DNA from: Cladocopium goreaui
Taxonomy: Eukaryota > Sar > Dinophyceae > Suessiales > Symbiodiniaceae
Length of the DNA: 64,000 nucleotides
Direction of reading: 5' to 3'
NCBI GenBank assembly: GCA_947184155.2
Contig: CAMXCT020000827.1
Coordinates: 142,417 to 206,416, forward strand
Shown: piece after piece, positions 2,060 through 62,473 of the stretch
Position numbering within the stretch: the stretch's first letter is position 1
Layout: each line of letters starts with the position of its first letter
Notes under the pieces: generated by a model
Told to the model about the DNA's origin: nothing
The model's database searches: none
What the model saw: only the letters and a program-made list of their open reading frames with translations
Translations under genes and position numbers: made by a program

Positions 2060-5000
2060 TTACCATGGAGTCTTGTCCTGTCTCTTCCGTTTGCGACCCC
2101 CCGGTAAGGCGTTAGACTTCGCCTGTGCTCTCAATTCATCAAACTCCTTCTTTGTATCCCACAACGCATGTATCAAAGAAGTGGGAATGTCAGCGTAGGA
2201 CATACCAATTTGCTTGGCCATATCAACCTGTGTGAAAACTGAATTGGTGATGTCATCCGCAACCGTATTGAGCTCACGAGGTCGCCAACGCAACCTAAGG
2301 CAAAGCCGCCCTCTGGCCAGGAGTGAAGAAAGCTGAAGATTCACCAGCATCAAGGGCCACTTCGTCGTGGTGCGCTTCCAAGAGAGAAACTCATTGCTCC
2401 TGTTGTCTGTCCCTGCAGTAAAACAAACTTCAACCGACTTGCGCAACCTGCACTGCTCGGTCCAACCAAAGGCCACTAACGCTGCCATAGAGGCAAGCAG
2501 CTCTGCTGAAGTGGAGGCCCACTGAGATCCTTTCCCTTCCACAAACAAGTAGGGCGCGTCACGCTCCTTGATGATAACTTGGAACCATCTACCAGAGTCA
2601 ACCTCCCAGCCCCCAAGCACAACTGTGTCATCTGTGCACTTTGCATCAGTGCGGAACTGTTCACCGCTGACAAACTTTGGCCTCGCTGCTGAAACCAAGT
2701 AAGATTCCATCTGTAGCTCCGCAAGGATGTACTTGAGGGTGAGAATGACTGTGTCCGGTAGCTTTGCCACCGTGCTAGAACCAGTAGCCGCCGACCAGGC
2801 ATAGAGTGGGGACAGATGGGGCTTCATCCATACCAACAACTGTGACACGAAACCCAGTCTCCCCAGGAATTCTGCAAAGTCACGAGTGACCACCACGTAC
2901 CGCTTGTCTGCAGCAGCCAAGATCCAGTCTTTCAACCAATCCCCACGCCTGATGGTCACACCGACCTCCTTCGTGTCGTACTTCATCTGAAAGCCAACGA
3001 ACTCCACTGAGAAACCGCCCCGGAACTTATGATAACCAAAAGGCGTACCAACCAGTTCAAACGCTAAGACCCAGACCCACATGTTGTGAAATTTCCTCAA
3101 GCCCGTGAAAGCACCGTGGAGGTCGTCCACGTAGACCATATGTAGAAACCAGGCTGTTGACATCAAGTGGCCAACAAATCGACCAACCAGTGAGAAGAGC
3201 TTTGCCCACCAGTAAGGCGCGCTTGAAATACCAAAAGTGCCGCACTTGTTAATCCAAACAGTCTGTGAGTCTGAATCCGCCCTGCAAGCAAGAAACCCCC
3301 AATCTGAGGGTCGCACCTTCACAAGTCTATGAGCCGCTCGTATATCTGCTGAAATTGCAAACGGTGCTTCACGCGACTCAAGTGCCTCCCTGACCGCAGC
3401 CGCAACTTCCGGAGGGCCAGGACATTGAATCTGGTCCTTGTACACTATTGCATTGTTTACCTGAACCGAGTGCGTCCCATCATGGAGAGGTCGGACAGAA
3501 CCGTCCGGTTTTGTGATTGCCGCCATTGCAGCTACCCTGACCTTGTCAGCTCCAAACTTCTCCTGCGCCACCGATAGCCTCAGGGGAAACATCCTACCCA
3601 AAGCTTCCTCCTCAAGGAATTTCTTCTGGAGTTCATCAACTGAAACACGCGCCGAAGGATAGTTAATTGCCAGTGGGTTGAACTCAGACTCATCAAGCTT
3701 CTTGTGTTTCAACTTGGGTGGAAAAACCTGTGGAGTCCTTGGCAACGGCTCCAACACTCCCACTGACACACCTGTGGCAAAACTGTCCTCCGCATTCACC
3801 AACGAGCCTACATCCGGATCCTCAAACACTTCAAGCCACTGAGCCAAACCATGCAGCAGAAACGGCTGTCCCTCGGCAACCACTAACGCCGACACAGGGT
3901 CGGGCAGCAATCCTGCCCACTGTTTTCTGAGCTTCTCCAACGCCTCCTGAGAAAAGGGAGACTCCACCAGCTTGCCAGTGGCCAACCTGAACGCCTCTGC
4001 ACGCACGTCCGGAATGCACTGATTGACCGTGTCCAGCAGCAAAGCAAAGGTATCTTGCGCAAGTTTCTTCATAGTCTCTGTGCGCCTGACCCCCCGTGAG
4101 GCTGGATGCCAACGAGTGGGCGAGCAAAGCCCAAAACCAATGAAATCTCTCTCACGCCCATCCCATTCCACAACCATTGGATGGCCCCTGTTCAAGCAAG
4201 CTTGCATGTCAAAAGAATCAACTGGCACCTCGCCTGCACCTGCTGTTTCTAGCCCATCGACTTCGGCTGAAGCTGTCTGTGGTGCTTCAGCTTCTGAACC
4301 TGAATCAACTTGAACCACATCCTGCACCTCGCGCTCCACAGCCTTCTGACCAGTTGGGATTTGTGAAGGGGGGTCACTGCTACCAGCTGGAGACCCATTC
4401 ACATTGAGGGAATCCTTGGACCCCCTCCCGGAGGTTGCATGCGCAACAAGGATGACCTCAACAATAAATTTGCAAAGACCTTCAGGATATGAAGCACTGG
4501 GTGAGGTGTTCCAACGGTTCGCCGTTTTTCCCATCAACTTGTGGACATGTTTGTGTCCACATGCAACCGGCAGTGGACCCAAGTATTTGAACCTGCTGTC
4601 AAATCGAGGCAAACCAAAGAAACAACGTTTGTCAACAACCTTTACATTACACATGAGTCTTGTTGGCTTGGGCGTGATCGCCCCAAAATGACATTGATGA
4701 ATGGCAAAAGTGGTGCCTGCAGACATGGCCAACAACTCATGTACTTCTGTCCATTGCCAAATTGAGCCCGGCACTTCATCTTGCACCAGGCCAAGATCTT
4801 CCGGGTGCTCCCAAAAATACCAACCATCACATTGTACTGCAACAGTGCAAGCATTCAAACATTGGAAAATGAACTCATTTGCTTCAGCAACAATCTTCGC
4901 ATTCTCATTTGACAACCATGGAAATCCTTTCGGCCATGTGCGATTTCGCACTGGCCTCGGGCCAGGGTACTTCCTCCATTGAAACCTGGCTCTAGAAAAC

Positions 5001-5290: not shown

Positions 5291-6604
5291 TCAAGCATTG
5301 CCTGTAACTTCTTTGTGTTTGATGGCCGGGTGATCACCATAACACCCTTTCACTCTGCACTGATGAACCCGGTTGCATTTGCCATCACATGAACCTGTGT
5401 TGTAACTGAAGCACAACTCACGGTTGTCTGGAGTCCTCCAGGCCAGTGTAAGCCCTTGTAACTCCTTTCGCACCTCTTTGCCCTTGCCCTTGCTGGATTT
5501 GCCTTTGCCCTTGTAGTTTGAGGATTGAAACTTGCCAGTCCCCTTCGTGTTGGGCCTCAGCCATTTCTGCTGAGGAGGATCTGCCTGCGAAGTCATCGCT
5601 GCCCTCAATGCCACCGGTGTAGTAAAATATGTTTCCTTCAATTCAGCATCGTGGATGACCTGATTCAAAGCATCTGCCAAAGTTGTACCATCTCTCACAA
5701 CCAACTTGAAAGCTTCTTTCCTCAAACGGTGCTCAAAACTCAAAATGATGCCCCAATCAGGTTTGACACGAGTCTGACCATCGCCCACCAACGAAGGGAC
5801 CTGAATATTGTAAACTTTCTCACCCAAAATGAAGTCAACAAATCGGTTGAAGGGGGCCGCAGTGAGGCCATGTAGCCAGGCCTTAGCCTTGTATCGCGCT
5901 GCCGTGCATAGCCATGCATACATTTCAACCCGCATTGCCCTCCTGTACTCCTCCGTATTCGAAGGAAGCTTGGACTTGACCTTGGTCTTGGTGATCCTGA
6001 TATGGCCTGTGCTGTCAAGGCCTGTCTGCATCTGAGATGTAGTGCTGTCCTTCCTTGATGAAACCTCGTCCAAGGAGGCAGCAACTGGTTCATTTGTTTC
6101 CGTCTCTTCAGCTTTCACAGAGAGGTATTCCACCGATGGTGTTTCCGATTCTTGCAACACTCCGTAAACAGCTTCAACTGCTTTAACCATCGCCTGCCTC
6201 TCGTGCACCTGCAAAGTGCGAGGCTGTCCCAAAACCTTTGCCTCTGCTCGTATCTCCGTCTCCTTGGCAATGAACTCCTGAGCAACCTCCCAAGAAGACA
6301 CAATTGCTGCTGTCTCGGCACGGTCAGCTGGGTTGTCCTGTGGGATAGCAAAATCCTGCAAACAGGCCAGTCTTATCTCTGCCCTCGTGTCACCAAGCGC
6401 CCTGAATTTCCTCAGAGTGCCATAACGCCTTGCGACTGCAACTTGGGCTCCAAGTGACACTCCGTTGTCTGACAAGACAAACTGCAAATCACTGTCCATA
6501 TGTTCAGAAATGAACTCCTTCTGTTGTTGCTCATCCATGGCTCCACTGGCACGGTCAAAACCCTGGGTGCCCAGTGAAGAAATGAAATCAAAAGGTGATA
6601 CCAA
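5291..6604 (-). CDS. YR-element gag-like protein with CCCH-type zinc motif
   Basis: 437 aa, between the recombinase ORF (upstream, 605-bp gap) and the RT ORF (66-bp gap). The middle is helical and charged without a family I recognise. The tail is basic and glycine/lysine-rich (KGKGKSSKGKGK, about 370-382), then CFSYNTGSCDGKCNRVHQC, a Cys/His cluster like a CCCH zinc finger, then CRVKGCYGDHPAIKH. A basic tail followed by a zinc cluster is the usual nucleic-acid-binding end of Gag. I infer a structural, RNA-packaging role from that and from its position; direct family assignment is not possible by eye. Confidence 0.65.
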   Translation of the reverse strand: MVSPFDFISSLGTQGFDRASGAMDEQQQKEFISEHMDSDLQFVLSDNGVSLGAQVAVARRYGTLRKFRALGDTRAEIRLACLQDFAIPQDNPADRAETAAIVSSWEVAQEFIAKETEIRAEAKVLGQPRTLQVHERQAMVKAVEAVYGVLQESETPSVEYLSVKAEETETNEPVAASLDEVSSRKDSTTSQMQTGLDSTGHIRITKTKVKSKLPSNTEEYRRAMRVEMYAWLCTAARYKAKAWLHGLTAAPFNRFVDFILGEKVYNIQVPSLVGDGQTRVKPDWGIILSFEHRLRKEAFKLVVRDGTTLADALNQVIHDAELKETYFTTPVALRAAMTSQADPPQQKWLRPNTKGTGKFQSSNYKGKGKSSKGKGKEVRKELQGLTLAWRTPDNRELCFSYNTGSCDGKCNRVHQCRVKGCYGDHPAIKHKEVTGNA

Positions 6605-7209
6605 CCCAAACTAAAATTGACAACGGCCAGAGCCCTGAGTTGTCACACCCAACTGGAGGTCAAAACCCCGCACAATGCCATATGCATGAAACAAAAGTTG
6701 ATGCAAACACTGCCAAAATTTGAAACATGCAATGCAATGTCCAATCTGACACGTTCATTCATGTCAGCGCCTTGAAGCGGAAAAGGTCGGAGACTTCCAA
6801 ATGAGGCTCCAAACAAATTTGTGACCAGAGTCAAACTGCATGGGAAAACATGTGATCATTGAATCCAACCAAGATGACAAACAATCAAAATCACTGCAAT
6901 CAAATCCAAAGGTCGCGACAGATGGCAATCAAACCTGTCCCTAAGAAAGCAGTACTACTGCGTGATGAAGTTTCCAAGTGCAACAGCCAATCACAAATTT
7001 CAGAAATCCCAGAAACGTCATGCAACACACTTTCACGGGACTCTCTTTAAGAGTAAGCTCGCGACTTCCACACTCTTTGGTGCCGTCACAACGACACACG
7101 TGAAATGCAGTGAAACGCTCTTCCAAACACTTGCAAGTGAAATCCAAAGCAAACGCAATGCAAAAGTAAGTGCCATAAACCAAACCAGCAAAAGGCATTG
7201 AATCACTTC
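6605..7209. other. Intergenic gap in the YR element
   Basis: 605 bp between the recombinase stop and the gag-like start. No supported ORF, repeat or hairpin was seen. It may hold the 5' leader of a separate gag/RT transcript, but nothing in the sequence shows this. Confidence 0.4.
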
Positions 7210-9234
7210 CTATTCAAGGTCCTGACTCGGAGCAGTTGACGACGATGATGCCGTCGAGCTTGATTCCTCCTGTGCGTCCTTACCACTTTCCGTCAACATT
7301 TTCTTCCTGCAAGCCCTGCAAATTGAATCAAAATCTTCATTGGTAACAGTCTGTAACAAACGCACTTCACAGCAGTGTGCAGGTTTCACAAAACAACCTG
7401 ACAAATGCAATCTCTTGTGGTTGCCACGACGAGAGATCGTGACAAAGTATTTCGGTGGCACTGCTGCATCTCCTGCTGACTGTTCGTCCAATGATGCTGC
7501 AACCTCGAATGCCTTCTCGTGCAACAACGCCATCTGCTCGTCAGTCAAGTCTTGCACATCATCCCAATCACCAGCTCTCACTTCAAGAGTGGGAAAAGTT
7601 CCCCCCAGACAGTGTCTGCCAGTCAAATTGTTCATCACGGTGTGCCTCTTGCGTATCCTCTTTGGATTTGCACCATGTGCTTCGGCATACGCACAAAGGC
7701 TGTCAATCGCCTCATCCTCAAAATACTCGTCCACTAAGCCCTCAACCAGAGACCTGTTGACGCACTGCTGATTCTTGTAAACCACCTGCCTGGCTGTACG
7801 GACATACTCCTCTGATGAGGTCATACCAATAGCCCAGCGTCCCAGGTATGCCCTCATGTCCTTGCTGAACCCCAACAGCGCCGCCACCGACGTCAAATAG
7901 TTTCTGGGGCTGTGTCCAGAAAAATGAAACTCCAAGCCATCAGGCAAAAGCAAAGCTCCAGGGGTCAATGTCCAGTCAAGTCCTTGTTTGACAGGCACCT
8001 GCAACTCACCAAGGACCCTGCGGATCAAAGAGCTGAGTCCAGTTGGCGTCACAAACTTCCTACGCACTCCTGACCAGTCAAAATTAGGCTCCATCACCAG
8101 GTAATCTCGCCTGTAGGCAAGCTGATCCTGTGACCACAGCTGATACCCTGTCCCCAGCCAGTCGCACCCTGTCAATGAAATTGTTCTGTAAACGTGTGCA
8201 ACAATTTCTTTCTGTGCCTTGTCCGGCTCAGTGGTCTTCGTCTTTCCCAAAAGCAACTTCAACCCAAAATTCGAAAGCAATGACCGATGGGGGAGAATTG
8301 ATTGCACATCGTCACAACGGAGTGCAGCCCAAACCATGACCAGAATTACCCATGCCAATGCCCTTTTGTAAAGGAATTCATCTTCATTGCAAACCAGTAT
8401 CTCCAATGAAACAAGCATTGCTGTTGTATACATCTCTGCAGGTCGACGCGGTGGACTGTCAGCTGATAACTCTGCTGTCCAAGACTTCACATGTCCAAGC
8501 CATAATGGATCTCTTGACAGTTGTTGATCCTGAGGAACCCTGCCCAACGTCTCCAGCAAGTTGAGGACCGTGCTGAATGACTCCGGCACAGTCTTGCCAC
8601 AGCCATCATCCACTCGACATTGCATGTAATCAATGATGTCTTTGCATGACTCAGGAAAATGCAAACCCCTATGGAGCTCAAGCCAAGACTGAAAAGGCTT
8701 CCAAGACTTGTACCTATTCTTGAGTGTGTTGGCGCGCCTCGCAGCAAACAAATGGAGCCAACCTGAAGCAGGATCCTCCAGTGTGTCAATCAACTTCGCA
8801 ACAGGCAATGCCGCCTGCTTCATGACATTTGACAACAGGATTGTATACCTCTTGCGATCGTCCTCTGTCTTCTTTGCCCTAGCGTCTGCAGACTCTTCTT
8901 TATACTTACGTTGTTTCTTCTTTGCAGCCATCTCCAAAACCATGACTGTACTTGACTGTGAAATTGCAGTGTACTGGACCTGGAGACGGAAAAGTGCCTC
9001 ATCAGCCAAGCTACGCCTCAAGCGCTTGAAATTGGAAGACTGTGTGGACTGCCAATGAACCAAACCTGCTGCCAAATTCCTGACGTCTTCATCAACCATG
9101 TCTGGAAAAAGTCCATGCAACAAAATTGAACAACCATTCTCATCATCAAAAGCAGCTTGCAACTGTAAAGGTGTGTGAAACCAATGCTGAGGCGACGTCA
9201 AAACGACGCTATCGATCTGAGGCCAATCGTCCAT
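7210..9234 (-). CDS. Tyrosine recombinase of the YR retroelement, with C-terminal zinc motif
   Basis: 674 aa. The integrase-type catalytic set is visible: Arg306 in AALRCDD, Lys331 in LLLGKTKT, His441-x-x-Arg444 in HSPRNY, Trp467 in LGRW (the second His/Trp position) and the nucleophile Tyr477 in EEYVRTAR. Residues 100-130 are very basic. A C-terminal extension adds HLSGC (610-614) ... CRAC (639-642), a possible zinc site, and a Ser/Thr tail. The protein should cut and join DNA through a 3'-phosphotyrosine to integrate the circular copy, consistent with the missing target duplication around this element. It is the first ORF after repeat A1, whereas DIRS-order elements normally encode it last. 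Start chosen at the ATG 64 bp inside A1. Confidence 0.88.
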   Translation of the reverse strand: MDDWPQIDSVVLTSPQHWFHTPLQLQAAFDDENGCSILLHGLFPDMVDEDVRNLAAGLVHWQSTQSSNFKRLRRSLADEALFRLQVQYTAISQSSTVMVLEMAAKKKQRKYKEESADARAKKTEDDRKRYTILLSNVMKQAALPVAKLIDTLEDPASGWLHLFAARRANTLKNRYKSWKPFQSWLELHRGLHFPESCKDIIDYMQCRVDDGCGKTVPESFSTVLNLLETLGRVPQDQQLSRDPLWLGHVKSWTAELSADSPPRRPAEMYTTAMLVSLEILVCNEDEFLYKRALAWVILVMVWAALRCDDVQSILPHRSLLSNFGLKLLLGKTKTTEPDKAQKEIVAHVYRTISLTGCDWLGTGYQLWSQDQLAYRRDYLVMEPNFDWSGVRRKFVTPTGLSSLIRRVLGELQVPVKQGLDWTLTPGALLLPDGLEFHFSGHSPRNYLTSVAALLGFSKDMRAYLGRWAIGMTSSEEYVRTARQVVYKNQQCVNRSLVEGLVDEYFEDEAIDSLCAYAEAHGANPKRIRKRHTVMNNLTGRHCLGGTFPTLEVRAGDWDDVQDLTDEQMALLHEKAFEVAASLDEQSAGDAAVPPKYFVTISRRGNHKRLHLSGCFVKPAHCCEVRLLQTVTNEDFDSICRACRKKMLTESGKDAQEESSSTASSSSTAPSQDLE

Positions 9235-9298
9235 GGCATCTAAATGCCCATGCTACAAACCCGAGTCCAGTCTGTACTGGATGCAACGCGCCCCAGAC

Positions 9299-9778
9299 TA
9301 CCCAAAAGTAATCCTTGCAAGCCAGATGCTCACGAAGATACCTTGAGACATCTTCTCAACTGCACCAGTGAAAACTGTGTTGAAGTCAGCAGGGAAAAAG
9401 AAACCGACTGTTGTAAACAAGTCACATGAAAAACATCTGAACTGTAACTCATCTGAGAACGTCGTCCACAAACGACCATTGACAGAAATTTCGAAAACAT
9501 CACAGTGAATTGTTTTCAAGAAATAAACCAGGAACATCCAAATAAACAGCAGGTTGAAAACTTGGACCATCAAATACGTCAACGTTGTTGAAGCCACTGG
9601 TGACCGACCATTGATGTGAAACTTCACGTGTCACATGACCAACAGTGAAATCGTAACACCAGAAAACAGCAATGCTGGCACCTGCCAGCAAAATGAGTGC
9701 ACACCCGTGCAAGAGACCCCACCCACCCACCCAGCACAACAAGCGTCGCATAGACCCACAGGGCAAGCCCAGTGAAGC
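9299..9778 (-). repeat. Split direct repeat A1 of the YR element (5' end)
   Basis: 480 bp partner of A2. It ends AGTGAAGC, and satellite resumes at once with ATTCCTACTTTTC. Any element promoter should lie here, but I see no diagnostic core motif. A 109-aa open frame inside (minus strand) also exists in A2, so it may only reflect low divergence. Confidence 0.9.
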
Positions 9779-18227: not shown

Positions 18228-18897
18228 CGTAAAACTTTGCACCGCTAAGTTGTGCCTTGAAAACCAAAACAAAACCTATCGCGATCAAAGTTACCCAAAG
18301 GCTTTTCCACAAATAAACAAACGTGAGTCAAACTTTCCGTGCTCTCTCGCTCAAATCACTCCAGACAACAAGCAACGCTTCAACACACACTCTGTTTCTC
18401 TCGCTCGGGCTTGAGCCAACGAGTATCGTTGACCATTCAGTTCAAATACTGTTTAAAGGTGACAAAAACCAAGGAGGGGTTTTTGTCTAAACTGCAAACT
18501 GTATTCCAGTCTTGACGAAATTCCGAAAAGCGATCCACTGAGGATCAAAAGCTTTCATTCGGCTCTAAAACTGTTGAAATGTTTCCAAACTGTTCAAATA
18601 TTCGGTTTCCTACAAAAACATCACAACTCTCAACTACAAAACGAGACGAGTGCAACCGCAGTGTCGGTTGTGCTCGTTGAGTGTCATAAAATGATCTATG
18701 CTTCATAGAGCATCCAAAAACATTCAAAAGTATATCTTCCACAGATGATATTCGGTCAAATCAAAACTACAAACTACGATCTGTCCATTCACAATCATTC
18801 CAAGTCAAAATAAGCTCGTCCACAGACGATACTTGGTGAAATCAAAACTGTGCAACGTCACTGATCTCTCAGCGCTATACCAGGTAGGATTTTCACA
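18228..18897 (-). repeat. 3' LTR of copia element 1
   Basis: 670 bp. On the minus strand it starts TGTGAAAATCC and ends GTTTTACG. It matches the split 5' LTR and the LTRs of elements 2 and 3. Ends are TG...CG rather than the usual TG...CA. No gene inside. Confidence 0.92.
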
Positions 18898-49300: not shown

Positions 49301-50593
49301 GACCAACTACGCCTCCAAAGAAGGCCGCAGCTAAGCCAGTTACTCCACAGAAGAGGACCAGTGAGGAGGCTGAGATTCCTGAAGGACCAGCGGCACCTCG
49401 TGGTTCGGTTGGGAAGGCTGTGAGGCCAATCCCAAAGACACCATCGCCGAAACGAGCGGTTGAGGAGAGGGCATTGTGGCCTGCGGAAGAAAGAGCTCTC
49501 AAAGATGCTGCAGCCCGAGGTTCAGCACCTGCGAAAGCTGAAGCAGCAAAGGCGCCACCTACGACTGTGGACCTCGTGACCCCGGTGACAGACAATGCAG
49601 GACAAGGTGATGCCAATCTTGTTGCAGCACAAGGTTGTGGGAGATTGTCAGCACTGACAGTGCACCAGCAGACGCCGGTGAGCTCGCAAGCTCCGACACC
49701 TACATCTCCAGCAGGAGATTCCGCTGTGGCAGGAGAGGGACCTACACCGAGTGTGCATCAATGGGCACAGGCTCCGGTGATTTCGCCATTGCCACCGACA
49801 CCACCGCCAGCACCAGTGGGAGGAGAGACAGAGGTTTGTGTGGCATGCCAAGGGAGTGGGCTGCTGAACTCGCAGGTGAATCTGCGATTGTTCCGACTCA
49901 TCGGAACGGGTCAGCTTCGTTTGGGACAGACACCTCAAGCGGCGCCTACGACTCCAGCCCAAGCTGCACATCCAGCCCCTGCGGCTGCTGCGAATCCTGC
50001 AGGTCCTGGTAATGGGACCGAAGTCAGCCTATAAGTTCTTCAAGAGCTTTGCTGAGGGATCTTCCGGTAGTGCGGATTCACAGAAACTGATTCAGGTACA
50101 CATTTCTCTTCCCTGTACTGGGGGTAGCCCTTTGTTGGACTTATCCAAGAAAGACAGGAAACCTGCTCAGGATGCGTATTTCAGGCTTCTTGATCATTGC
50201 AAGAGATATGTTTCATATATCAAGGGCATGAGCAATGTGTGTAGTGCTGTGACTCTGGAGCTTCCGAAGTCGAACCGTTTTTGGTCAGACGAGAGATTGA
50301 AGAAGTTTCTGACTGACCACGACATGCAAAAGTTTGCGGATTGTGCTGCATGTGCCATGGGTTTGGAAACCAGTCAGGGACAGCCCATTGGTAAAGTCTT
50401 TCGCATTGCATGTTCGGATCAAGTACTTGCCACAGGTCTTGGAAAGAGATTTCAGTGTAAATGTACTCAGGACCACGCTCCATTGAATCAGGTCAACTAT
50501 TCGATGACGGAAAGATACTCATATAAGTTTGCCAGATTCTATTGTCGTGCTATTGCACTTCGTTGGATTGATCAACAGGAAGAAACATCGTGA
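43348..50593 (+). pseudogene. Copia element 3 polyprotein, broken
   Basis: Recognisable as the same polyprotein but interrupted. A TAA stop lies at 44076-44078 and a one-base loss near 44100, just before the protease. Frameshifts lie near 44988 and 45024 in the integrase, and further small indels near 45100 and 45155. Then 45163-50034 is open for 1623 aa, covering late integrase, RT (YVDD), RNase H, the third zinc knuckle and proline-rich runs. A 227-bp deletion at about 50030 removes the start of the methyltransferase-like module (including LILELACG) and shifts frame; 50012-50593 carries the remaining SLPCTGGSP and LELPKSNRFW part. It cannot give a full polyprotein. It preserves the linker missing from element 2. 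Confidence 0.9.
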
Positions 50594-50952
50594 TTTTGTT
50601 TGTCATTGACTGCAGTTTGCATCAGTTTGCATTTCATGTCAGCAGTTTGACTTCAGGAAAGTACAGTTTTCTTTTTCAGCTGAACCGTTCAGTGGAATTT
50701 GCATGTTTGCATGGTTCACAGCGGATTCAGGGACATTCGATTGTCAGGCACAGTTTTCAGTGAAGACTTCACTAAGTGAATTCTCAGGTTTTGTCATCAG
50801 GAATCAGATGATGACACCAGTTTAGTTTCAGGAGCCTATCAACTCCGTTGAGAGAGTGCTTGCATCAGGACGCTCACACTCCAGTTTTGTTCTGTTGTGT
50901 GTGTGTTTTCTTTTTCGTGTAGCCCGGGCCGGCCGCGCCGCGTTCGCCAGCC

Positions 50953-51534
50953 ATGGATGAGCTTCTCATTGTGGTGCTATTTTCTGCATTGACTGGAGTG
51001 ATGATTGGATCTTTGGGGACAGTTGTTATATTCTGGCTTTGTGGAGCACTGGAACGTAAGACAGTTATTGAGAAAGTTAGTCCAGAGTTGAGGGATGCGA
51101 CAATTCAGGCTGAATATACTCAGGCTACATCGGATGAGACGTCAGACTTCAGACAAATGCACAGAGCTCAGACTTCGTCTTCTTATCATTTGTACATTGG
51201 AACTGCGGAGAGGTGTTATCATCTTGATCGCCGTTGTCGTTGTTATCCAGATTGGGACAATGTGAAGAGAGGGCTTACAATTTGTGAAATCTGCCGTATT
51301 TCATCTTCGACTTTTGAGATTGGGCAATGTATTTTTGCTTCTGAACAAGGACAGAAGTTTCATTTGACCCGATTTTGTCGTACTTTCAAGAGTCTACCGG
51401 TGACTGAATATGCAAGGTGCACTGCATGTTGTACAATGGAACATTCTACACAGGTTTTATTCGGAGATTCAGTACCTCGTCAGCGAAGAACTGCTTCGTC
51501 AACTTCTTCTATTGCAGGTATGTCAGAGGATTAG
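50953..51534 (+). CDS. Membrane-anchored double zinc-motif protein, element 3
   Basis: 193 aa, intact although the polyprotein upstream is broken. Same hydrophobic N-terminus and two His...Cys...CxxC sets as in elements 1 and 2, and the same GC-rich block just upstream of the ATG. Confidence 0.7.
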   Translation: MDELLIVVLFSALTGVMIGSLGTVVIFWLCGALERKTVIEKVSPELRDATIQAEYTQATSDETSDFRQMHRAQTSSSYHLYIGTAERCYHLDRRCRCYPDWDNVKRGLTICEICRISSSTFEIGQCIFASEQGQKFHLTRFCRTFKSLPVTEYARCTACCTMEHSTQVLFGDSVPRQRRTASSTSSIAGMSED

Positions 51535-51630
51535 ATTTTTCTGGATGGTGATGGGACGCCATGACTTTCTGGATTGCATTGCATTGACTGCACTACGTAT
51601 TGGACGAAGACTCCATACTGACCTCTCATC

Positions 51631-51639
51631 GAAAGGGGG
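51631..51639 (+). promoter_or_regulatory. Polypurine tract of copia element 3
   Basis: GAAAGGGGG, directly followed by the TGTGAAAATCC start of the LTR. Confidence 0.8.
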
Positions 51640-52312
51640 TGTGAAAATCCTACCTGGTATAGCGCTGAGAGATCAGTGACGTTGCACAGTTTTGATTTCA
51701 CCAAGTATCGTCTATGGACGAGCCTATTTTGACTTGGAACGATTGTGAATGGACAGATCGTAGTTTGTAGTTTTGATTTGACCGAATATCATCTGTAGAA
51801 GATATACTTTTGGACGTTTTTGGATGATCGATGCTTCATAGAGCATCTCATGACGCTCAACGAGCACAACCGACACTGCGGTTGCACTCGTCTCGTTTTG
51901 TAGTTGAGAGTTGTGATGTTTTTGTAGGAAACCGAACATTATTTGAACAGTTTGGAAACATTTCAACAGTTTGAGAACCGAATGAAAGCTTTTGATCCTC
52001 AGTGGATCGCTTTTCGGAATTTCGTCAAGACTGGAATCCAGTTTGCAGTTTAGACAAAAACCCCTCCTTGGTTTTTGTCACCTTTAAACAGTATTTGAAC
52101 TGAACACCCAACGACATTCGTTGGCTCAAGCCCGAGCGAGAGAAACAGAGTGTGTGTTGAAGCGTTGCTTGTTGTCTGGAGTGATTTGAGCGAGAGAGCA
52201 CGGAAAGTTTGACTCACGTTTGTTTATTTGTGGAAAAGCCTTTGGGTAACTTTGATCGCGATAGGTTTTGTTTTGGTTTTCAAGGCACAACTTAGCGGTG
52301 CAAAGTTTTACG
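51640..52312 (+). repeat. 3' LTR of copia element 3
   Basis: 673 bp, TGTGAAAATCC...GTTTTACG. It contains TTGGCTCAAG at 52121-52130, equal to the last ten bases of the dinoflagellate spliced leader. No LTR partner exists on the left. Confidence 0.92.
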
Positions 52313-55132: not shown

Positions 55133-55154
55133 GCCGTAGCCATTTTGGCTCAAG
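55133..55154 (+). other. Dinoflagellate spliced-leader sequence embedded in genomic DNA
   Basis: Exact match to the 22-nt dinoflagellate leader (G, then CCGTAGCC...TTGGCTCAAG). It is followed at once by CCTTGGCTCAAG (55155-55166) and by a weaker TATCGGCTCAAA (about 55170-55181), which look like older, decayed leader ends. The leader is normally added to mRNA by trans-splicing, so its presence in DNA means an mRNA was reverse-transcribed. It is not followed by an obvious splice-donor and Sm-site arrangement of an SL RNA gene. Confidence 0.9.
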
Positions 55155-55643
55155 CCTTGGCTCAAGGCTGTATCGGCTCAAACCCCGTGGGACTGGGTAA
55201 CCTGATTTTAACTCAAGGGGCAAACATCCATCTTGGGTGATTTGCGTGAGTTAATTTTGGGGGCACCAGTATAAAGGGGCTAGGGTAGTACTGCCGTAGG
55301 AAGAGCACAAAGGTGCCCGTCAACCTGTTTTGTTTAGAAGAGAATAAGGGAGGGGGGGTTTATCTTAGTTTTGTTTGTTTAAGATCTACCTTCTCGTTTT
55401 TGACTTACTTGCATTGTGTCCGTTGAACACACCTGTTTTGAACCCCATTTGTTTAAGGACTCCTGGGGTACCCAGTGTAGTTCTTTCACTTGTGATCTTG
55501 TTGGTTTTATTGACAAGGCTCACTGGGGTACTCAGTGTAGTCTTTTTTGTTCTTGTTATCGTCTTGCTCCGCCCAGTTTGCCCTTCTGGCCTGCCTCTGT
55601 GCAGTCACTGTACCCAGGGGTACTCTGGGTTATAGTCGACAAC
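55155..55643 (+). promoter_or_regulatory. 5' leader of the LINE with repeated GTA-loop hairpins
   Basis: About 490 bp before the first plausible ATG. It contains CTGGG-GTA-CCCAG (55473-55485) and CACTGGG-GTA-CTCAGTG (55521-55537), both followed by TGTAG or GTAG, and CCCAG...CTGGG (55613-55629). An upstream open frame from 55416 is in frame with ORF1, but its composition looks non-coding. Confidence 0.5.
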
Positions 55644-57452
55644 ATGAACAGCAACCCTCATGAAACTGTTGAACAGCATGCCATTGAGCTGGTGTCGAGT
55701 CTTGGGAAAGAACATCTTTTTGTTGCGAACTGTCCCAGTGATATTGATCCGAACAGATATTCAGGCACTGTGATCACCTATGAAGAAGCCTTTGATCACA
55801 GTGATACAGGAGTTGGCCTCTGCCTCTTACTCCCCAAAGCTTATGTCCTTCAGAAATTCATTGACATATGCCTTAACAAAGATATCTCTGTTCACTTTGT
55901 TTTCACTTGTTCAAGCAGTACCAGCGAATTTGAAGCTTCTGCATGGTTATACAACCTTCTCAATGATAAAGTTCAACATGTCGGTTTTATGCAAAATCTT
56001 GGCGTTACCTTTTGCCCCGCAAATAACCAAGAGAAATATCTCATTGCATGCCAGGTTGAACCGTATGCCGAACACTGTCATGTTTCTTGGTCTCGACCCT
56101 GCAGAACGCTGGAGTATGTCTTTCCCAGAACTGTTGTTGAACGACACCAGACTATTAGTGAACTTCAGAGCCTGTCTGCTGTTAACTATATTGACTTCAG
56201 AAGACCCAATGGATGCCATCGCATATCAGATAAGATTGATGTCACCTCACTCACTGTCCAAATTGCCAATGATTGCCTGGCAGACATCGAGCTTGTTGAG
56301 AAGATCCTTCAGCCAACTGTTGATGCCGCTTGGTCGCATGGACTTGCAGAGTGTCAGGTAAAGCATTTCTTTCCATGGAATGACACAGAATTCCAAAAGC
56401 ATTTTCCACATGGAATCACTATGTCAGTACTGGATTTGAAGGCTTTTCCGAACACCGTGCTTAATGAAATTCTTGTCCAACTAGCCAACCTTAAAGTGAG
56501 GTACCATTTCATGAATTACAGAAGACTTGCCATCTTTGGGCCGCCGTCACTGGTCATTAACCTTCACTTAGCCCTTCTTCCATTTGACGTTCATTTACCT
56601 ATTGGGCCTAAACAGGGTGCTTTCACTGTCCACATGCTGCGATCAGAACCACATTGCACACAGACCGCCCATGATTATAATCATTTTCAAGTCAAATTTG
56701 GCAAGATTGGTTCCTTTCAGTATGCACCTGCACAAATTCTATGGGCTGAAATTCCCTCATCAATATGTATGGAGGATCAACTTGACCAATTAGATCAATC
56801 ATCTCTGGTACAATTACTAAAACAAAAAATGGGGGCTGTTAATTTTTCCATTCGTTGGTGCCAGGTTGACCGGTCGCAGCAAAAGTGTCTGTGTTTTGAC
56901 ATCGAGATTAAACATGAAGACTCTCTACCTCTTTCACTGGATTGTGACCCTTGCCAAGTTGTAATTCAGCACCAGTGCCCCTCTGCGGAAGATTTTCGTG
57001 CTGATGTCTCCCTTACTGAAGTCGAAACTAGACGGGATCACTGGAATAAAGTCATTGCCCAACAAATGATCCCTAAAGAAGGCAGAATCAGTCATCTTTC
57101 CTTCGAACCAAACAAGAAACAGTCAGCCAAAAGATACTATGATCTGCGTACCACTGTCACTGATTCTATGCAGGACTTCACCAACATCATTGCCATTGCA
57201 TCTCAACCGCCTGCGTGGTTTTTCTCCTTGATGGAATGCTTACAAAAAGTTAATTTTTGTGACAACTCCTTCATTCAGGAATCCTTTGTGACGAATCCTG
57301 ACACTGTTAAGATTGATTTACTTCATCATGAATTCATCAAGCATAGGGACCACCAGAAGTGGCTTTTTTATCATATCGTACTTGGTCCAGAACAGCGTTT
57401 TCATTTGAAATCTATCCACCTCGAGCGTGATGAATGGAAGGTACGATACTAA
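55644..57452 (+). CDS. LINE ORF1, unknown protein
   Basis: 602 aa from the ATG at 55644 (MNSNPHETVEQHAIEL), chosen because the upstream extension to 55416 overlaps the hairpin leader and reads unlike protein. It is a mixed alpha/beta-like composition with scattered Cys and no zinc knuckle, RRM or coiled-coil that I can identify, so it does not look like a typical L1 ORF1. It ends at TAA (57450-57452), and the same reading frame stays open for a further 2.67 kb. It may therefore be the N-terminal part of one long polyprotein cut by a nonsense mutation. Function unknown; an RNA-binding role would be a guess from position only. Confidence 0.6.
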   Translation: MNSNPHETVEQHAIELVSSLGKEHLFVANCPSDIDPNRYSGTVITYEEAFDHSDTGVGLCLLLPKAYVLQKFIDICLNKDISVHFVFTCSSSTSEFEASAWLYNLLNDKVQHVGFMQNLGVTFCPANNQEKYLIACQVEPYAEHCHVSWSRPCRTLEYVFPRTVVERHQTISELQSLSAVNYIDFRRPNGCHRISDKIDVTSLTVQIANDCLADIELVEKILQPTVDAAWSHGLAECQVKHFFPWNDTEFQKHFPHGITMSVLDLKAFPNTVLNEILVQLANLKVRYHFMNYRRLAIFGPPSLVINLHLALLPFDVHLPIGPKQGAFTVHMLRSEPHCTQTAHDYNHFQVKFGKIGSFQYAPAQILWAEIPSSICMEDQLDQLDQSSLVQLLKQKMGAVNFSIRWCQVDRSQQKCLCFDIEIKHEDSLPLSLDCDPCQVVIQHQCPSAEDFRADVSLTEVETRRDHWNKVIAQQMIPKEGRISHLSFEPNKKQSAKRYYDLRTTVTDSMQDFTNIIAIASQPPAWFFSLMECLQKVNFCDNSFIQESFVTNPDTVKIDLLHHEFIKHRDHQKWLFYHIVLGPEQRFHLKSIHLERDEWKVRY

Positions 57453-57458
57453 GATGAA

Positions 57459-60125
57459 TTGATCATACGTACTTTTGAACCCTCCTCAATTTTTGTCACA
57501 CTCCCACCTGGAATTTCAATATCGCAGGTCGTCGACAAAGCACAATGTTGTCACCTCCGAGAGGCACATGCCTGTATCGTACCATCACAAAGAACCCCTA
57601 ATGTTGGCACTGTCCATGCTGGATTGAAAGAGCAGTATACTAATGCCACACCGACTGCTAATTTTCCAAACGGTCATGGAATGAACAGCGCTAAGAGTGT
57701 GCCCTCCCACGGGCAATCGAGTCCAATACCATCAGGTAGCAGACCTACTTATCGCCCACCTCACAAACCCAGGCAGTTTAGAGGATCCCCCAAAATACCT
57801 CCTGAGGGTGATGTTGAAATGCAGCCTGCGCCAACGAATGACAGCAAACACCCAGAACCTCCGGAAACGCACCTTCAGTCAGATACTGGCAAACACTGTG
57901 AAGATGTACCCATGGAATGTGTTGCAACAGCTCTTGATCCGGTTGACGACAACACTCATAGTTCTGACAAAGACTCCCAACAAGACAATGATACTCTCCA
58001 TGGTCATAACCCCCTTGCCTCTGACAACAACCTTGCCACGGCCAACCTTGGTCAGAATCACCCTCACGAACCAGGACAACATGCCCATGATGGCCTTACG
58101 AACAACCCCAGTTCCCCCAAGGCGAAACACTTGCATCACAATGCGAATATGCCCACTGATCACAAAGATGTCGCCAACGTGGGGTACCCACGGTTGAGTG
58201 ACACTTCCCAACCTACTGCCCAGGCAAATTTTGTACCCAAAGCCACTGTGCAACCCTTACTACTGGACTGCCCCACTCAGCGAAATGATGCCATCCACAG
58301 ACCCACTCGCACCCATTCCACGCCTCAGGCCACAGGACCATTCAACCCTCCTACATGTCTCGCCAATGATCCAACGTCTAAGCAACGAGACCATTCTGAC
58401 AATCTTTCCTTAAAAGCTGGCTTACCAACACAAAAGAGTCGTCAGACCAGCAGACAGACGAGCCGCAGCCAAGATGAGCATAGGAATGTTCCTAATCAGC
58501 CACCCGAAACTGTCCTTGACCTTTTAACACAAAATGCCGCCTATCAGCAACTAGATGACAATGCTAATGAACATGCTCCTGGCGATGAAGTGATCTTTGT
58601 CAAGGCCTCACATAGCCCTATCGACAACATTCTATGTGGCAGCGAACAAAGCAGTAGTCTCCTTATTTCCAATAGAGAAATCATCACTGGATGGCCCAGC
58701 TCATTTTCCCATGCTGATTGCGACTACTTTGCCAAGCTTGCAACGTGTTATCTTATTAAATTCCCAAGCTACATGTGCTATGCGGTTACTGCACTTCGTG
58801 TCCTCACCCATGCACCTTGGAATGATAACATGTTTCATGGCCACATCAGAGAATTAGTCTTATGTGCTATCGGCAATGGATGGACATGGGCTGACCAGAC
58901 AGCTACTGTGCAAGGAAGACGAGTAAGCATTGGAGAAGTCTGCGCTGCTTTTGCTAGCTACCTGAACGTGAACGCCTTTCCGCCTGGACAGGTCTCTGAC
59001 CTTGACACCGCTATCATTGCAGCTTGTGATGACTTATTTCCAGACCATAGCGAACTCTTCTTTGCGCAATTTCAGGTGAACTGCCTTTCATGCAGCGCAT
59101 CGGGCCAGGTTTCAGCCGCTCTGTTTGATACAATGTTGAGTATTAACCTGGAGAATGATACCATTGATCTTCCACAAATGATTGCAGATCGGGCTCCGCG
59201 CCTTGCACTTGACAGAGAGGATGTTGGTTTTTCTCACGTCAGTGACTGTTATAATCAGGACCAACAGAACAATGAAGAAATTGAAGGTTGTTTGATTTTT
59301 ACCCTCAAAATTACAAGCCCCATTGAGCAACTGCCAACTGCTACCAAGGCTTTAGACCTCCTTGGACAGCTCTTCAATGTTCCCACCCTGAGTGCAAATC
59401 CGGTTTCTCAATCTTTCATCGTCACTGGTATCATCATTGTTCAAGGAAAGTCGTCACACCATTTCCTTATCATTGAACGGTGGAACGAAGGACAGGTTCT
59501 CGTCTATGACAACCTCCGAGGCCATGCATGGATCCCGGTCGAACAACTAAAAGCAACCTCCTTTGTCTGGGGTTTTGTCTTTCGACGACATGATCATCAG
59601 CCTTATTCGTTCCAACCTCCACAGTACAAAGCCATTGCACCTGCCACACTACAGTGTACCAAGCAGTCTCATCGCCCCAAAAAACCAAAGTCAAAACCCA
59701 AGAATACCTTCGGCATTAGTGCCAGACGATATCAGGTCTCCAGCCTTTCAAGAAAGAAGTTGGGAAATAATAATACTCCGGACAAGTCAACTGAAGCATT
59801 GGATAATAAGCCAATTGACCCCCCACCACCAGGTGAGAGCCCTCACCATACCGATACCCCGAAACACACTCACCCTGCACACAGTGGGGCGGGTGATCAA
59901 CACGGGGTACCCGTGGTTGGTTACCCGCCCGGAAACGAACACACGTCCCCCCTCTGCAAAATGAGCCGGCCGGCAATGGTCATTGCAGCCACCATGGGGT
60001 ACCCATGGTTGGACTTGTTCCGCCGTTTCCTCACGCTGGTACACACCCTCCACATGCTGACCAGAACAACGACATCGCGGGTGTCACGCCAGAAAGCCAC
60101 TGTGGGGTACCCACAGTTGGTCTGA
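57459..60125 (+). CDS. LINE ORF2: disordered linker plus ubiquitin-specific-protease-like domain
   Basis: About 888 aa in the same frame as ORF1, directly after its TAA; there is no ATG at the start (first in-frame ATG 57681), which favours continuity with ORF1. Residues 60-390 are Pro/His/Asn/Thr-rich and probably disordered. Residues about 420-710 resemble peptidase family C19: MCYAVTALRVLTH (Cys440) like the Cys box, and HHFLIIERWNEGQVLVYDNLRG (His668, Asp684) like the His box with its downstream acidic residue. A C-x-x-C is present (NCLSC). The tail holds two of the four VGYP-type repeats encoded by GTA-loop hairpins. If active it would cleave ubiquitin or a related tag. The family call rests on two motifs and spacing only. 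Confidence 0.5.
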   Translation: MIIRTFEPSSIFVTLPPGISISQVVDKAQCCHLREAHACIVPSQRTPNVGTVHAGLKEQYTNATPTANFPNGHGMNSAKSVPSHGQSSPIPSGSRPTYRPPHKPRQFRGSPKIPPEGDVEMQPAPTNDSKHPEPPETHLQSDTGKHCEDVPMECVATALDPVDDNTHSSDKDSQQDNDTLHGHNPLASDNNLATANLGQNHPHEPGQHAHDGLTNNPSSPKAKHLHHNANMPTDHKDVANVGYPRLSDTSQPTAQANFVPKATVQPLLLDCPTQRNDAIHRPTRTHSTPQATGPFNPPTCLANDPTSKQRDHSDNLSLKAGLPTQKSRQTSRQTSRSQDEHRNVPNQPPETVLDLLTQNAAYQQLDDNANEHAPGDEVIFVKASHSPIDNILCGSEQSSSLLISNREIITGWPSSFSHADCDYFAKLATCYLIKFPSYMCYAVTALRVLTHAPWNDNMFHGHIRELVLCAIGNGWTWADQTATVQGRRVSIGEVCAAFASYLNVNAFPPGQVSDLDTAIIAACDDLFPDHSELFFAQFQVNCLSCSASGQVSAALFDTMLSINLENDTIDLPQMIADRAPRLALDREDVGFSHVSDCYNQDQQNNEEIEGCLIFTLKITSPIEQLPTATKALDLLGQLFNVPTLSANPVSQSFIVTGIIIVQGKSSHHFLIIERWNEGQVLVYDNLRGHAWIPVEQLKATSFVWGFVFRRHDHQPYSFQPPQYKAIAPATLQCTKQSHRPKKPKSKPKNTFGISARRYQVSSLSRKKLGNNNTPDKSTEALDNKPIDPPPPGESPHHTDTPKHTHPAHSGAGDQHGVPVVGYPPGNEHTSPLCKMSRPAMVIAATMGYPWLDLFRRFLTLVHTLHMLTRTTTSRVSRQKATVGYPQLV
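58175..58196 (+). repeat. GTA-loop hairpin, coding copy 1
   Basis: CAA-CGTGGG-GTA-CCCACG-g-TTG. Nine paired bases with one bulged G. In ORF2 it encodes NVGYPRL. Confidence 0.7.
59898..59919 (+). repeat. GTA-loop hairpin, coding copy 2
   Basis: CAA-CACGGG-GTA-CCCGTG-g-TTG. Same outer stem and bulge as copy 1, but the three variable inner pairs differ and remain complementary. It is read in a different codon phase from the other copies (HGVPVVG). Confidence 0.7.
59989..60012 (+). repeat. GTA-loop hairpin, coding copy 3
   Basis: CCAC-CATGGG-GTA-CCCATG-GT-t-GG. Inner pairs CAT/ATG. ORF2 reads TMGYPWL; the ATG at 60005 used as the ORF3 start lies in its right arm. Confidence 0.7.
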
Positions 60126-62473
60126 CGGACACCCCTCAAAACGATAACGGTACACCATCCCATGCAGACCTAGGTAGTAAAGAGCTTGTCGCTGTCCCTC
60201 ACCCTCATGAAAATGAGGCTTTGACACCGGTCAGTATTAACGCAAGTGCCCAGTGTCCAACGCATGAGCATGCACCAGCGGAGGCTGTCCGGTCACGCCC
60301 CAATGATAATTGCAACAAAGTAAACCCATCCTGTAGCTATACTGATAGTCTACGCCCTCCAGTCAGTGGTGAAAGTGGTGCTTCCCATAGTTCCCTGGCT
60401 AAGGAAAAAGATGCATCCCCTCCCAAAAGGGCTAAGTATTCCAAAGTTCACCCATACGCTGTCATTAGCCTTTTTGACGGTGTAGGCTCAGCTATTCCGG
60501 CCATCACTAAAGCTATCGGATGTGCCCCACGCATCATCATTGTTGCAGAATGTGACCCCATCCTCAGGCAGCTCGTTGGTGAACAATTTTCTCTTCGAAC
60601 TGACGGGGAATGGACCCAATCCAGCAAGGACACTTACACGCTTTATGCTGACGATGTGCGACAGCTTCTTCGAAACCAATGTCGAATACTTAAGGAAGCA
60701 TTTGCATTAGCTGGGCCACAGTGCCGTTGGTTTGTAATTGCTGGCTCACCCTGCCAGGATCTAACCCCAGCCGGCCCCCTGAAAGGACTCCTCGGACTCA
60801 CTGGTCATTGTAGCTCCCTTTTCTTCTATGTCCATGTAATCCCGTGGCTTTTGCAAATGAACTATCCGCTGGAACACATTCGCTTTCTGCTTGAAAATGC
60901 AGGTGCAATGCTTGACATCCATCGTAAAGCAATCCTGCGTGCCCTTGGACTTAACCCTGATTCGACTCCCGATAGCTTCCGCGTTGACCCCAAGAATACA
61001 CATGGCATAAGGCGTAACAGATTTTACTTTCGCAACTACCAAGACTGTGTCAAAGTCTCCAGGACGGTTGTCCTTGAACCGAATGACATAGAAGGGCCTT
61101 TGTTGGATTTTAATGGTCATCCGATTCCTTTTGGGCCACTCCTCCGGGTTAGATCAGTCCTGGGACACAATGTGTATCAGCTATCTTGGACGGCATATCA
61201 ACCAATTTCTCTTATATGGGACTACCCTTTCTGGGGAGATAAAGCTCAATTCCAACTCAAAGCCAAAATGCATTCCAGTGACATAATCCCTGCCCTTGAC
61301 TTTGAGAAATCTCTGCCGCCACATTATCTGCGTGCATGGAATCGATTCCTACAGTCTCTCCGACAAACAAATGTGAGCACCATTGATAGAGACCGGCTTG
61401 TCCGTGCTATTCTGCCAATATTCCATCATCCCCACATCAAAGCACCCATGAGAATCTTGCTCTGCGATGAGGTCGAAAAATTAGCTGGGTTACACAACCA
61501 TTTTGACCGGGTCCATGCTCATCGCTCGCTGCTCACTGAGTTTACAGTTAGAAACTATTGCGGCAACAGCTTTCATCCGGAATATATTCAAGCAGCCGTA
61601 GGGCACCCTGAGCGTCTACGCAGCTGGCTTACTGAACCTGCTGAATCAGCAACCAAGCATGCATGGTCCGGAGTCGTTCACCCGAAACAAGCTCGCGCTC
61701 AATACCAAGCCTTGCGTGAACAAGTACAAACCCTGGCACGAGAACAACGTATCCGTGATTTCTCCTCCAAACAAATTGGTCTTGATCCAATGCCGGAATT
61801 TCCAATTCATGCGCTAGAAGGCCACTTGACCCCAGTCATGCCGACTGTACTGCCCAAGCAACTGCTGCCTGCTACCCGTAAGATCCACCCTGCCGACCTA
61901 GGTGTCATGGACAACAGACCACCATCGCAGCTTTCGCCAACTGCAATTCAACTCCTTCAGAAGAAACAAATGCAAAGCATCCTCATAGGAATGAAGTTTT
62001 TCGGAGCAGGAATTGGAAGAGCTGAAGATCTGCTGCAATTCTTCTTTGGTCATAATTATGACGCTGTAGTTGAACGCCATTGTCCACAGGCCAAGGAATG
62101 GATCTCCCACAAACTTAAATCCGCTGGACAGTGCACCTCCACCATGGCACAAATTTTGCTTTGGTTGTATTCCCTATTACATCATGAGCAAGTTTCTGTT
62201 CATTTTGTTCATATTGCTGACTGGGAAGATCAAGCACATATTGCTACCTTCGGTGACGCCCCTGCCAAATGGACGGTCTACTGTGTTCAATTCCCACGCT
62301 CGCGTACTTTCACCTTGACACAGCTGCGTGGAATTGTCATACCCGGGTTGACATCCCATGGCAGCAATTGCCTCACCCTGTGGTGTTTACGGCTGCACCT
62401 ATCCCGTTCCACTGCACCAACCCCAACTGCATCTGGTTTGCTGTTCCTTATGGACCCAAAGGACAATATCTGA
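60005..62473 (+). CDS. LINE ORF3: Dnmt3-type cytosine-5 DNA methyltransferase
   Basis: 822 aa. After a 145-residue Pro-rich lead comes a methyltransferase domain: SLFDGVGSAIPAI (155-167, motif I), GSPCQDL (247-253, catalytic Cys250 of motif IV), then KGLLGLTG as in Dnmt3, FLLENAGAM (294-302, motif VI Glu297), RNRFYFRN (337-344, motif VIII) and YCGNSFHPE (518-526, motif X-like). It should transfer methyl from S-adenosylmethionine to cytosine C5. No bromo, PHD or PWWP domain is present. The 250 C-terminal residues are unassigned. The frame is open from 59897 and overlaps ORF2 in the -1 phase. All catalytic motifs look intact, unlike the more diverged modules in the YR and copia elements. Confidence 0.85.
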   Translation: MVGLVPPFPHAGTHPPHADQNNDIAGVTPESHCGVPTVGLTDTPQNDNGTPSHADLGSKELVAVPHPHENEALTPVSINASAQCPTHEHAPAEAVRSRPNDNCNKVNPSCSYTDSLRPPVSGESGASHSSLAKEKDASPPKRAKYSKVHPYAVISLFDGVGSAIPAITKAIGCAPRIIIVAECDPILRQLVGEQFSLRTDGEWTQSSKDTYTLYADDVRQLLRNQCRILKEAFALAGPQCRWFVIAGSPCQDLTPAGPLKGLLGLTGHCSSLFFYVHVIPWLLQMNYPLEHIRFLLENAGAMLDIHRKAILRALGLNPDSTPDSFRVDPKNTHGIRRNRFYFRNYQDCVKVSRTVVLEPNDIEGPLLDFNGHPIPFGPLLRVRSVLGHNVYQLSWTAYQPISLIWDYPFWGDKAQFQLKAKMHSSDIIPALDFEKSLPPHYLRAWNRFLQSLRQTNVSTIDRDRLVRAILPIFHHPHIKAPMRILLCDEVEKLAGLHNHFDRVHAHRSLLTEFTVRNYCGNSFHPEYIQAAVGHPERLRSWLTEPAESATKHAWSGVVHPKQARAQYQALREQVQTLAREQRIRDFSSKQIGLDPMPEFPIHALEGHLTPVMPTVLPKQLLPATRKIHPADLGVMDNRPPSQLSPTAIQLLQKKQMQSILIGMKFFGAGIGRAEDLLQFFFGHNYDAVVERHCPQAKEWISHKLKSAGQCTSTMAQILLWLYSLLHHEQVSVHFVHIADWEDQAHIATFGDAPAKWTVYCVQFPRSRTFTLTQLRGIVIPGLTSHGSNCLTLWCLRLHLSRSTAPTPTASGLLFLMDPKDNI
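60097..60120 (+). repeat. GTA-loop hairpin, coding copy 4
   Basis: CCAC-TGTGGG-GTA-CCCACA-GT-t-GG. Inner pairs TGT/ACA. ORF2 reads TVGYPQL just before its stop; ORF3 reads GVPTVGL. Confidence 0.7.

Follow-up and report, generated by a model that had tools for sequence, protein, structure and literature searches.

Methyltransferase-like modules in YR and copia retroelements of Cladocopium goreaui, beside a Dnmt3-like enzyme in a LINE

Dinoflagellate genomes are methylated at most of their CGs, and LINE and DIRS elements carrying DNA methyltransferases (DNMTs) were described in Symbiodinium by de Mendoza et al. in 2018, two of the DIRS-borne enzymes producing de novo CG methylation in yeast (PMC5890265). 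The locus considered here raises the question of which retroelements carry methyltransferases (MTases) and from how many origins these were acquired. The window, by which the whole analysed stretch of 64,000 nucleotides of Cladocopium goreaui DNA is meant, is the end of its contig in a 1.17 Gb genome. It contains a YR element, three copia copies and a LINE, and in each of these three classes the first-pass annotation had noticed an MTase or MTase-like module, with independent capture by the three as the reading to be tested; the earlier dinoflagellate reports to which it alluded are those of the 2018 paper. Are the YR and copia modules MTases, are they related to each other, and what would they do for their elements?

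The motifs on which that annotation was based are present in all three classes. The YR element is organised as follows:

734-9778, minus: YR element, located inside a 417-base satellite
734..1102, minus: repeat B2, 100% identical to 1659-2027
1179..1658, minus: repeat A2, 99.6% identical to 9299-9778
1659..2027, minus: repeat B1, 100% identical to B2 (734..1102)
9299..9778, minus: repeat A1, 99.6% identical to A2
2060..5290, minus: pol ORF with MTase-like module, reverse transcriptase (RT) and C-terminal tail (from the translation)
4439..5233, minus: MTase-like module, 265 aa
within 3107-3133, minus: RT motif YVDD (recognised motif)
5291..5293, minus: in-frame TGA separating Gag and Pol
5291..6610, minus: Gag-like ORF with a Cys/His cluster
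7210..9252, minus: tyrosine-recombinase-like ORF (motifs R312, HSPR447-450, Y483)
5195-5209, minus: module motif YLFAG
4985-5017, minus: module motif SPPCNTFSRAR
4790-4810, minus: module motif EHPEDLG
4655-4672, minus: module motif PKPTRL
4541-4561, minus: module motif CGHKHVH

The split direct repeats follow the order A1-coding-B1-A2-B2 and are 99.6-100% identical. All five module motifs lie N-terminal of YVDD, in agreement with the proposed position of the module ahead of the RT. The RT (YVDD) and the recombinase (R-HxxR-Y) were named from motifs that we take to be characteristic, and RNase H is presumably found in the C-terminal tail of the pol ORF. Neither the RT nor the recombinase is backed by a Pfam or PDB profile match; a missing Pfam match therefore says little about these strongly drifted proteins. 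The 417-base tandem satellite into which the element is inserted occupies positions 15-732 and ~9752-15608.

The copia copies are assigned to Ty1/copia by RVT_2 (E ~1e-16), CCHC knuckles and LTRs:

18228..29789, minus: copia copy 1, right LTR interrupted
19956..20696, minus: C-terminal MTase-like module of copy 1 (polyprotein 19953-28550)
33123..43347, minus: copia copy 2, LTRs 33123-33802 and 42677-43347
34853..35593, minus: C-terminal MTase-like module of copy 2, 247 aa (polyprotein 34850-42598)
43348..52312, plus: copia copy 3, 5'-truncated, right LTR 51640-52312
50018..50590, plus: module remnant of copy 3, residues 57-247, without motif I

In copies 1 and 2 the polyprotein extends ~680 or ~960 residues beyond RT/RNase H, with the module at its end; the two modules are 98% identical and share the motifs ELACG, SLPCTGGSP, LELPKSNRFW, GQPIGKVFRI and CKCTQDH. 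The reported C-terminal motifs are present in these two copies; copy 3 lacks motif I. Between copies 1 and 2 there is also a 694-aa open frame (30152-32236, plus) with no credible family match.

The LINE runs into the end of the contig:

from ~55133, plus: LINE, ending at the contig end, beyond which the RT would fall
55404..62473, plus: ORF1, broken (TAA 57450-57452; frame change near 59.9-60.1 kb)
60452..61105, plus: C5-DNMT core with Dnmt3-like motifs
60464-60487, plus: motif ISLFDGVG
60743-60763, plus: motif GSPCQDL
60887-60907, plus: motif LLENAGA
61004-61036, plus: motif GIRRNRFYFRN
62757..63683, plus: endonuclease (EEP) frame (Pfam PF03372, E 1.7e-9)

A piece of ORF1 (57453-60125, plus) shows a weak cysteine-peptidase match (Peptidase_C39, E 0.08).

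Recurrence in the genome shows the modules to be more than chance. The match counts are lower bounds, scoring having been limited to the best first-look candidates: at least 145 matches to the YR module (144 scored of 2910), at least 152 to the copia module (150 scored of 2987), which include a second subfamily of ~38% identity, and at least 150 to the LINE DNMT core (150 scored of 535), around which other genome copies hold open frames of up to ~2,425 aa. Two further branches were recognised. The P0125-type is a second branch of the YR family (at least 127 matches, 127 scored of 1664, partly overlapping the first YR list). The P0211-type (EWP...IKKPWT; at least 120 matches, 119 scored of 3599) is a branch of the copia-module family; it is found inside open frames of up to 4,689 aa and is defined by its module sequence, none of the best 150 of 7362 RVT_2 matches tying it to an element type. 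The Pfam family PF00145 has at least 125 matches in the same genome (123 scored of 2685). Among public proteins, the YR module has 115 matches and the copia module three, then 87 by profile. Copia is the commonest of the three element kinds, and many of its RT matches (best 150 of 7362) are found in ORFs of 1,841-1,893 aa, which, to judge from their length, probably represent copia lacking the C-terminal module beside the module-bearing lineages.

Conservation was counted once per source sequence, with gapped rows outside the denominators and matches covering under half of the module left out, in 112 YR sequences and in 69 copia-family sequences that include P0211-type rows. The YR module keeps motif I (F11 83/83, G13 82/83), D41 (99/101), the Pro-Cys of motif IV (P75 104/106, C76 106/107) and the Glu of motif VI (E142 108/109); its motif VIII region reads KPTR (K189 84/89, R 84/89), the classical form being QxRxR, and it ends in a Cys/His cluster (C225 71/77, H227 68/78). 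In the copia family, Pro-Cys (P88 63/64, C89 62/64), the Glu (E137 62/66) and W145 (63/65) are likewise kept, motif I is divergent (ELxC; E24 46/47, C27 48/48), the motif VIII region is represented by a lone Lys (K182 55/57), and a terminal Cys/His cluster is again present (C203 50/52, H209 51/54). Of motif I and Pro-Cys, by which C5 MTases are recognised, the YR module has both and the copia family the motif IV half only.

Purifying selection acts on both modules. With pairs grouped by divergence, the class medians of dN/dS span 0.06-0.13 for the YR module (where 338 of 435 pairs are saturated), 0.01-0.14 for the YR RT piece and 0.13-0.18 for the copia module. Comparison of copia copies 1 and 2 gives a pN/pS of 0.17 for the module, in which they differ by only 18 changes, against 0.09 for RT-RNase H and 0.45 for the adjoining linker; copies 2 and 3, compared in regions outside the module, differ by 9-11 changes per region (pN/pS 0.24-0.71), too few to tell. 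None of 30 YR genome copies has an internal stop in the module, and a single one replaces Cys76 by Arg, these being the best-scoring copies, among which intact ones are over-represented. Module and RT distances are correlated (r 0.97 in 24 copies; 0 of 2000 permutations), so the YR module has been inherited along with its element. YR and copia modules alike are element domains that are conserved, maintained by selection and built on one motif plan.

The Cys/His cluster at the end of both modules had hinted, in the first-pass annotation, at a single superfamily, which the profile comparisons make probable. The YR profile aligns with the P0211-type branch at a score of 30.1 over 128 collinear columns, in which the Pro-Cys, Glu, Trp, Cys-x-x-Gly and Lys positions of the two coincide. 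None of 100 column-shuffles reached this score; the best was 20.6 in a run of 40 and 27.3 in a run of 60. The P0211-type profile in turn matches the window copia module at E 8.6e-23. Direct YR-copia matches are weaker: E 0.035 over 48 columns, 0.0041 over 113 columns and, with larger profiles, 0.02 over 52 columns, where at least one of 40 shuffles scored higher in one run and none of 60 in another; these E-values are weak for the 18 pairwise profile comparisons made. The P0125-type branch did not match the copia family significantly (E 0.17-0.3), and global hhalign was uninformative. Separate capture of the two modules followed by convergence would be in keeping with so modest a direct match (E 0.004-0.035) and with a best YR alignment that involves a branch named for its module and not for a copia carrier. 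Nevertheless, the collinear alignment extends to the non-catalytic Trp and Cys-x-x-Gly, both families end in a Cys/His cluster, and the P0211-type matches the window copia module, which makes convergence unlikely.

The LINE enzyme, by its motifs a C5 DNMT, was considered for the same family and rejected, since its motif VIII differs and all of its 19 PDB matches are to DNMT3A/B/C, at E values of only 0.17-1.4; the different, Dnmt3-like type assigned to it by the first-pass annotation is retained. Shared ancestry of the YR and copia modules would leave at most two origins, and three independent captures have been set aside on this ground. The supposed convergence of three classes is better read as two origins, one of them shared between classes; if so, the module must have moved between element classes or been captured from one shared source.

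That the YR module is an MTase is very probable, and that the copia module is one is quite probable. The profile search suggested as a check gave a divided answer. In the PDB, DNMT2 was the first YR match in both searches (4h0n, E 0.092 with alignment A2 and 0.029 with A9) and accounted for three of the four matches in each, the other two with A9 being 9hgm (E 1.2) and 1g55 (E 1.4); the match is limited to motifs III-IV. DNMT2 proteins are characterised by a CFT target-recognition motif and a tRNA substrate. PF00145, on the other hand, misses the YR and copia modules: at E 1 it detected a single YR member among 51 (E 0.16) and not one copia member among 38, its gathering score was reached by neither, and the LINE core itself gave only E 0.36. 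No Pfam MTase family appears at E 1 in any ORF of the YR element, and single-sequence searches of Pfam, NCBIfam, PHROGs and PDB returned no significant MTase match for YR or copia. The copia PDB profile search gave nothing with alignment A1 and a single unrelated match (E 0.52) with A10. Two other PDB hits are regarded as fortuitous: P0001 matched a bacterial toxin chain (E 0.05), and P0003 a cytochrome subunit (E 2.3).

Among 1089 ORFs, the best match of the YR profile after the window pol was a viral C5 MTase (L083, E 0.03), followed by three N6/N4 MTases (E 0.12-0.25) that hardly differ in length or score. As a class, C5 ORFs outscored the other ORFs longer than 200 aa when the search profile was that of the YR module (p 3e-9) or of the copia module (p 0.002), values that are too small because the C5 ORFs are mutually related; with the P0211-type profile they did not (p 0.94). 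The YR module matched own-genome and pooled C5 profiles in hhalign at E 0.0028-0.0035, over motif IV only, with 0 of 40 shuffles reaching the score of the pooled profile; when the C5 profile was built from viral sequences alone, the match (E 0.017) was exceeded by a shuffle. N6/N4 MTases gave no match to the YR profile (E 0.09) or to the P0211-type (E 0.33), and a match to copia motifs I-II (E 0.034, 0 of 40 shuffles). The copia profile was not significant against pooled C5 profiles (3 of 40 shuffles reached the score) and matched own-genome C5 profiles at E 0.021 over 34 columns (0 of 40 shuffles), with Pro-Cys out of register in both cases. Motif IV and the DNMT2 match thus suggest, with moderate strength, a link of the YR module to C5 MTases; that of the copia module would be indirect.

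It might be argued that the modules are not MTases at all, and that they represent a retroelement domain peculiar to dinoflagellates, with a fortuitous resemblance of its Pro-Cys and Glu to those of C5 enzymes. This would agree with the absence of a database family and with the non-significant comparison of copia with pooled C5 profiles. Likewise, scans with one or two short peptide patterns per alignment found no relative of either module in IMG/VR (four alignments) and, for the YR type, none in a prokaryote genome collection. The argument is countered by the MTases that rank directly below the window ORF with the YR profile (E 0.03-0.25), by DNMT2 as the top PDB match, by the order and spacing of motifs I-IV-VI, which we take to be those of C5 MTases, and by the strand-propensity peaks that each of the three profiles shows at motifs I, II, IV and VI (a crude measure, with nine peaks per profile). 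We therefore consider a non-MTase domain rather unlikely.

A further alternative is that the modules adopt the MTase fold as pseudo-enzymes, binding nucleic acid or SAM as a decoy or in packaging. A motif VIII unlike the classical QxRxR, the PCTGG form of motif IV in copia, and terminal Cys/His clusters fit for zinc and nucleic acid are what such proteins might show. However, the Cys and Glu that are catalytic in C5 enzymes are among the most conserved residues of both modules (the counts given above for C76 and E142 in YR, C89 and E137 in copia), and their near-universal presence is more than binding alone would demand, the Arg mentioned above being an exception among 30 YR genome copies; this possibility appears rather improbable. 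That RNA and not DNA is the substrate, a DNMT2-like activity protecting or marking the genomic RNA of the element, would fit the DNMT2 proteins found as best YR PDB matches and is unlikely, given that these matches concern motifs III-IV alone and that the yeast experiments with two DIRS-borne DNMTs yielded CG methylation of DNA (PMC5890265).

On balance we favour an explanation in which the YR and copia modules form a divergent branch of C5 MTases, made in cis and methylating the nucleic acid of their own elements. They would be Rossmann, SAM-dependent enzymes that keep the Cys nucleophile of motif IV and the Glu of motif VI, in one retroelement-borne branch apart from the Dnmt3-like LINE enzyme. 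Each module would be produced together with the RT: in YR as the first Pol domain, reached by UGA readthrough after Gag; in copia as the last Gag-Pol domain; and in the LINE with the DNMT located in ORF1. It would hence sit in the particle or RNP that makes cDNA and, as a product synthesised in cis with the RT, would act on the element's own product, most likely cDNA and possibly RNA, so that new copies would enter a genome methylated by default at CG already bearing the mark.

The Gag-Pol junction of the YR element was inspected in 30 copies (loci L011-L040). Upstream of the module, the closest in-frame stop is TGA in all 30, and in 29 it is found at the same place, directly after the Gag Cys/His cluster; at L012, where the frame has shifted, it is a different TGA. 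Pol and the Gag match share a frame in 28 of the 30. The base following TGA in the 29 copies is C in 26 and A in three, which belong to the window's own subfamily. At 95% identity the copies form 21 clusters, all with TGA. Since one or two substitutions would suffice to give TAA or TAG, the TGA appears to be maintained as such; this suggests programmed UGA readthrough that would yield a minor Gag-MTase-RT product. Among the papers listed by a literature search there was no report of such readthrough.

A benefit of methylation might be resemblance to host DNA, a hypothesis to which CpG content gives little support. The CpG observed/expected ratio is 0.61 in YR, 0.67 in copia and 0.60 in the LINE, the neighbouring DNA giving 0.57-0.71, and medians over 30 loci each are 0.56 for YR and 0.66 for copia; neither in the window elements nor in these loci does depletion single out any element clearly. 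The larger satellite block (~9752-15608) has a ratio of 0.20, far below the elements (0.60-0.67).

The closest counterparts are among the elements described in 2018 (PMC5890265). Like SymbioLINE-Dnmt, which has many copies and a C5 DNMT ORF upstream of the endonuclease/RT ORF, the window LINE shows the DNMT and then the endonuclease, the RT presumably lying beyond the contig end; it looks like a broken SymbioLINE-Dnmt copy, no difference in organisation having been noticed as far as compared. The SymbioLINE DNMTs are called a Symbiodinium-specific lineage in that paper, while the best PDB matches of the window LINE are to DNMT3. SymbioDIRS-Dnmt3 and the window YR element have in common the A-coding-B-A-B repeats, a separate recombinase ORF and an MTase in the RT ORF, and differ in that the SymbioDIRS domain is a Dnmt3, whereas the YR module is unseen by PF00145 and has DNMT2 as best PDB match. 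DIRS elements without DNMTs are also mentioned, among which, as a guess, elements like the window YR may have been filed. The window copia shares CCHC Gag, RVT_2 RT and LTRs with dinoflagellate Ty1/copia, of which that paper says that it "lacks any DNMT domain", and differs from it in its C-terminal MTase-like module. The charophyte KnitGypsy-Dnmt3 likewise has a DNMT inside the Pol of an LTR element, but with a Dnmt3, a gypsy-type Pol and another lineage (PMC5890265).

The LINE and DIRS pairings have been known since 2018 (PMC5890265), while the copia carrier looks new. A literature search covering few subscription papers and no preprints listed no report of an MTase in dinoflagellate copia, and the Pfam-invisible domain family in this YR element and copia also looks new. 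Among YR retroelements, DIRS1-like elements carry Dam-type MTases, which are of the N6-adenine type; the window YR element differs in that none of its ORFs matches a Pfam MTase family at E 1. The chances are evenly balanced that YR and Ty1/copia elements, two unrelated retrotransposon classes of dinoflagellates, share a C5-MTase-like superfamily that is specific to retroelements, escapes Pfam and has spread through both. If this is true, then, the Dnmt3-like LINE enzyme included, a large share of the retroelements moving in this genome would encode a cytosine-modifying enzyme of their own, and methylation of new cDNA as a general entry requirement of retroelements becomes a testable question. 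DNMT gene counts in the 2018 paper use PF00145 (legend of its Fig. 1; PMC5890265), a family whose profile overlooks the YR and copia modules. Should a second MTase family be present in copia and in additional YR elements, the methylation-writing gene pool would exceed the PF00145 count.

Traces of the dinoflagellate spliced leader were also observed. The sequence that we take to be this leader has 172 exact copies in the genome, and its reversed control has none. In the window it is found at the 5' end of the LINE:

55134..55154, plus: dinoflagellate spliced leader at the LINE 5' end
55157-55166 and 55174-55181, plus: shortened leader-like pieces after the full leader

This arrangement looks like the outcome of repeated trans-splicing and copying of the LINE RNA, and tandem leader relics are known in dinoflagellate retrogenes (PMC6050394). 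Another copy of the leader (G000:C459:5483-5503, plus) lies ~4.5 kb upstream of a YR module (C459:9950), close to the expected 5' end of that YR element.
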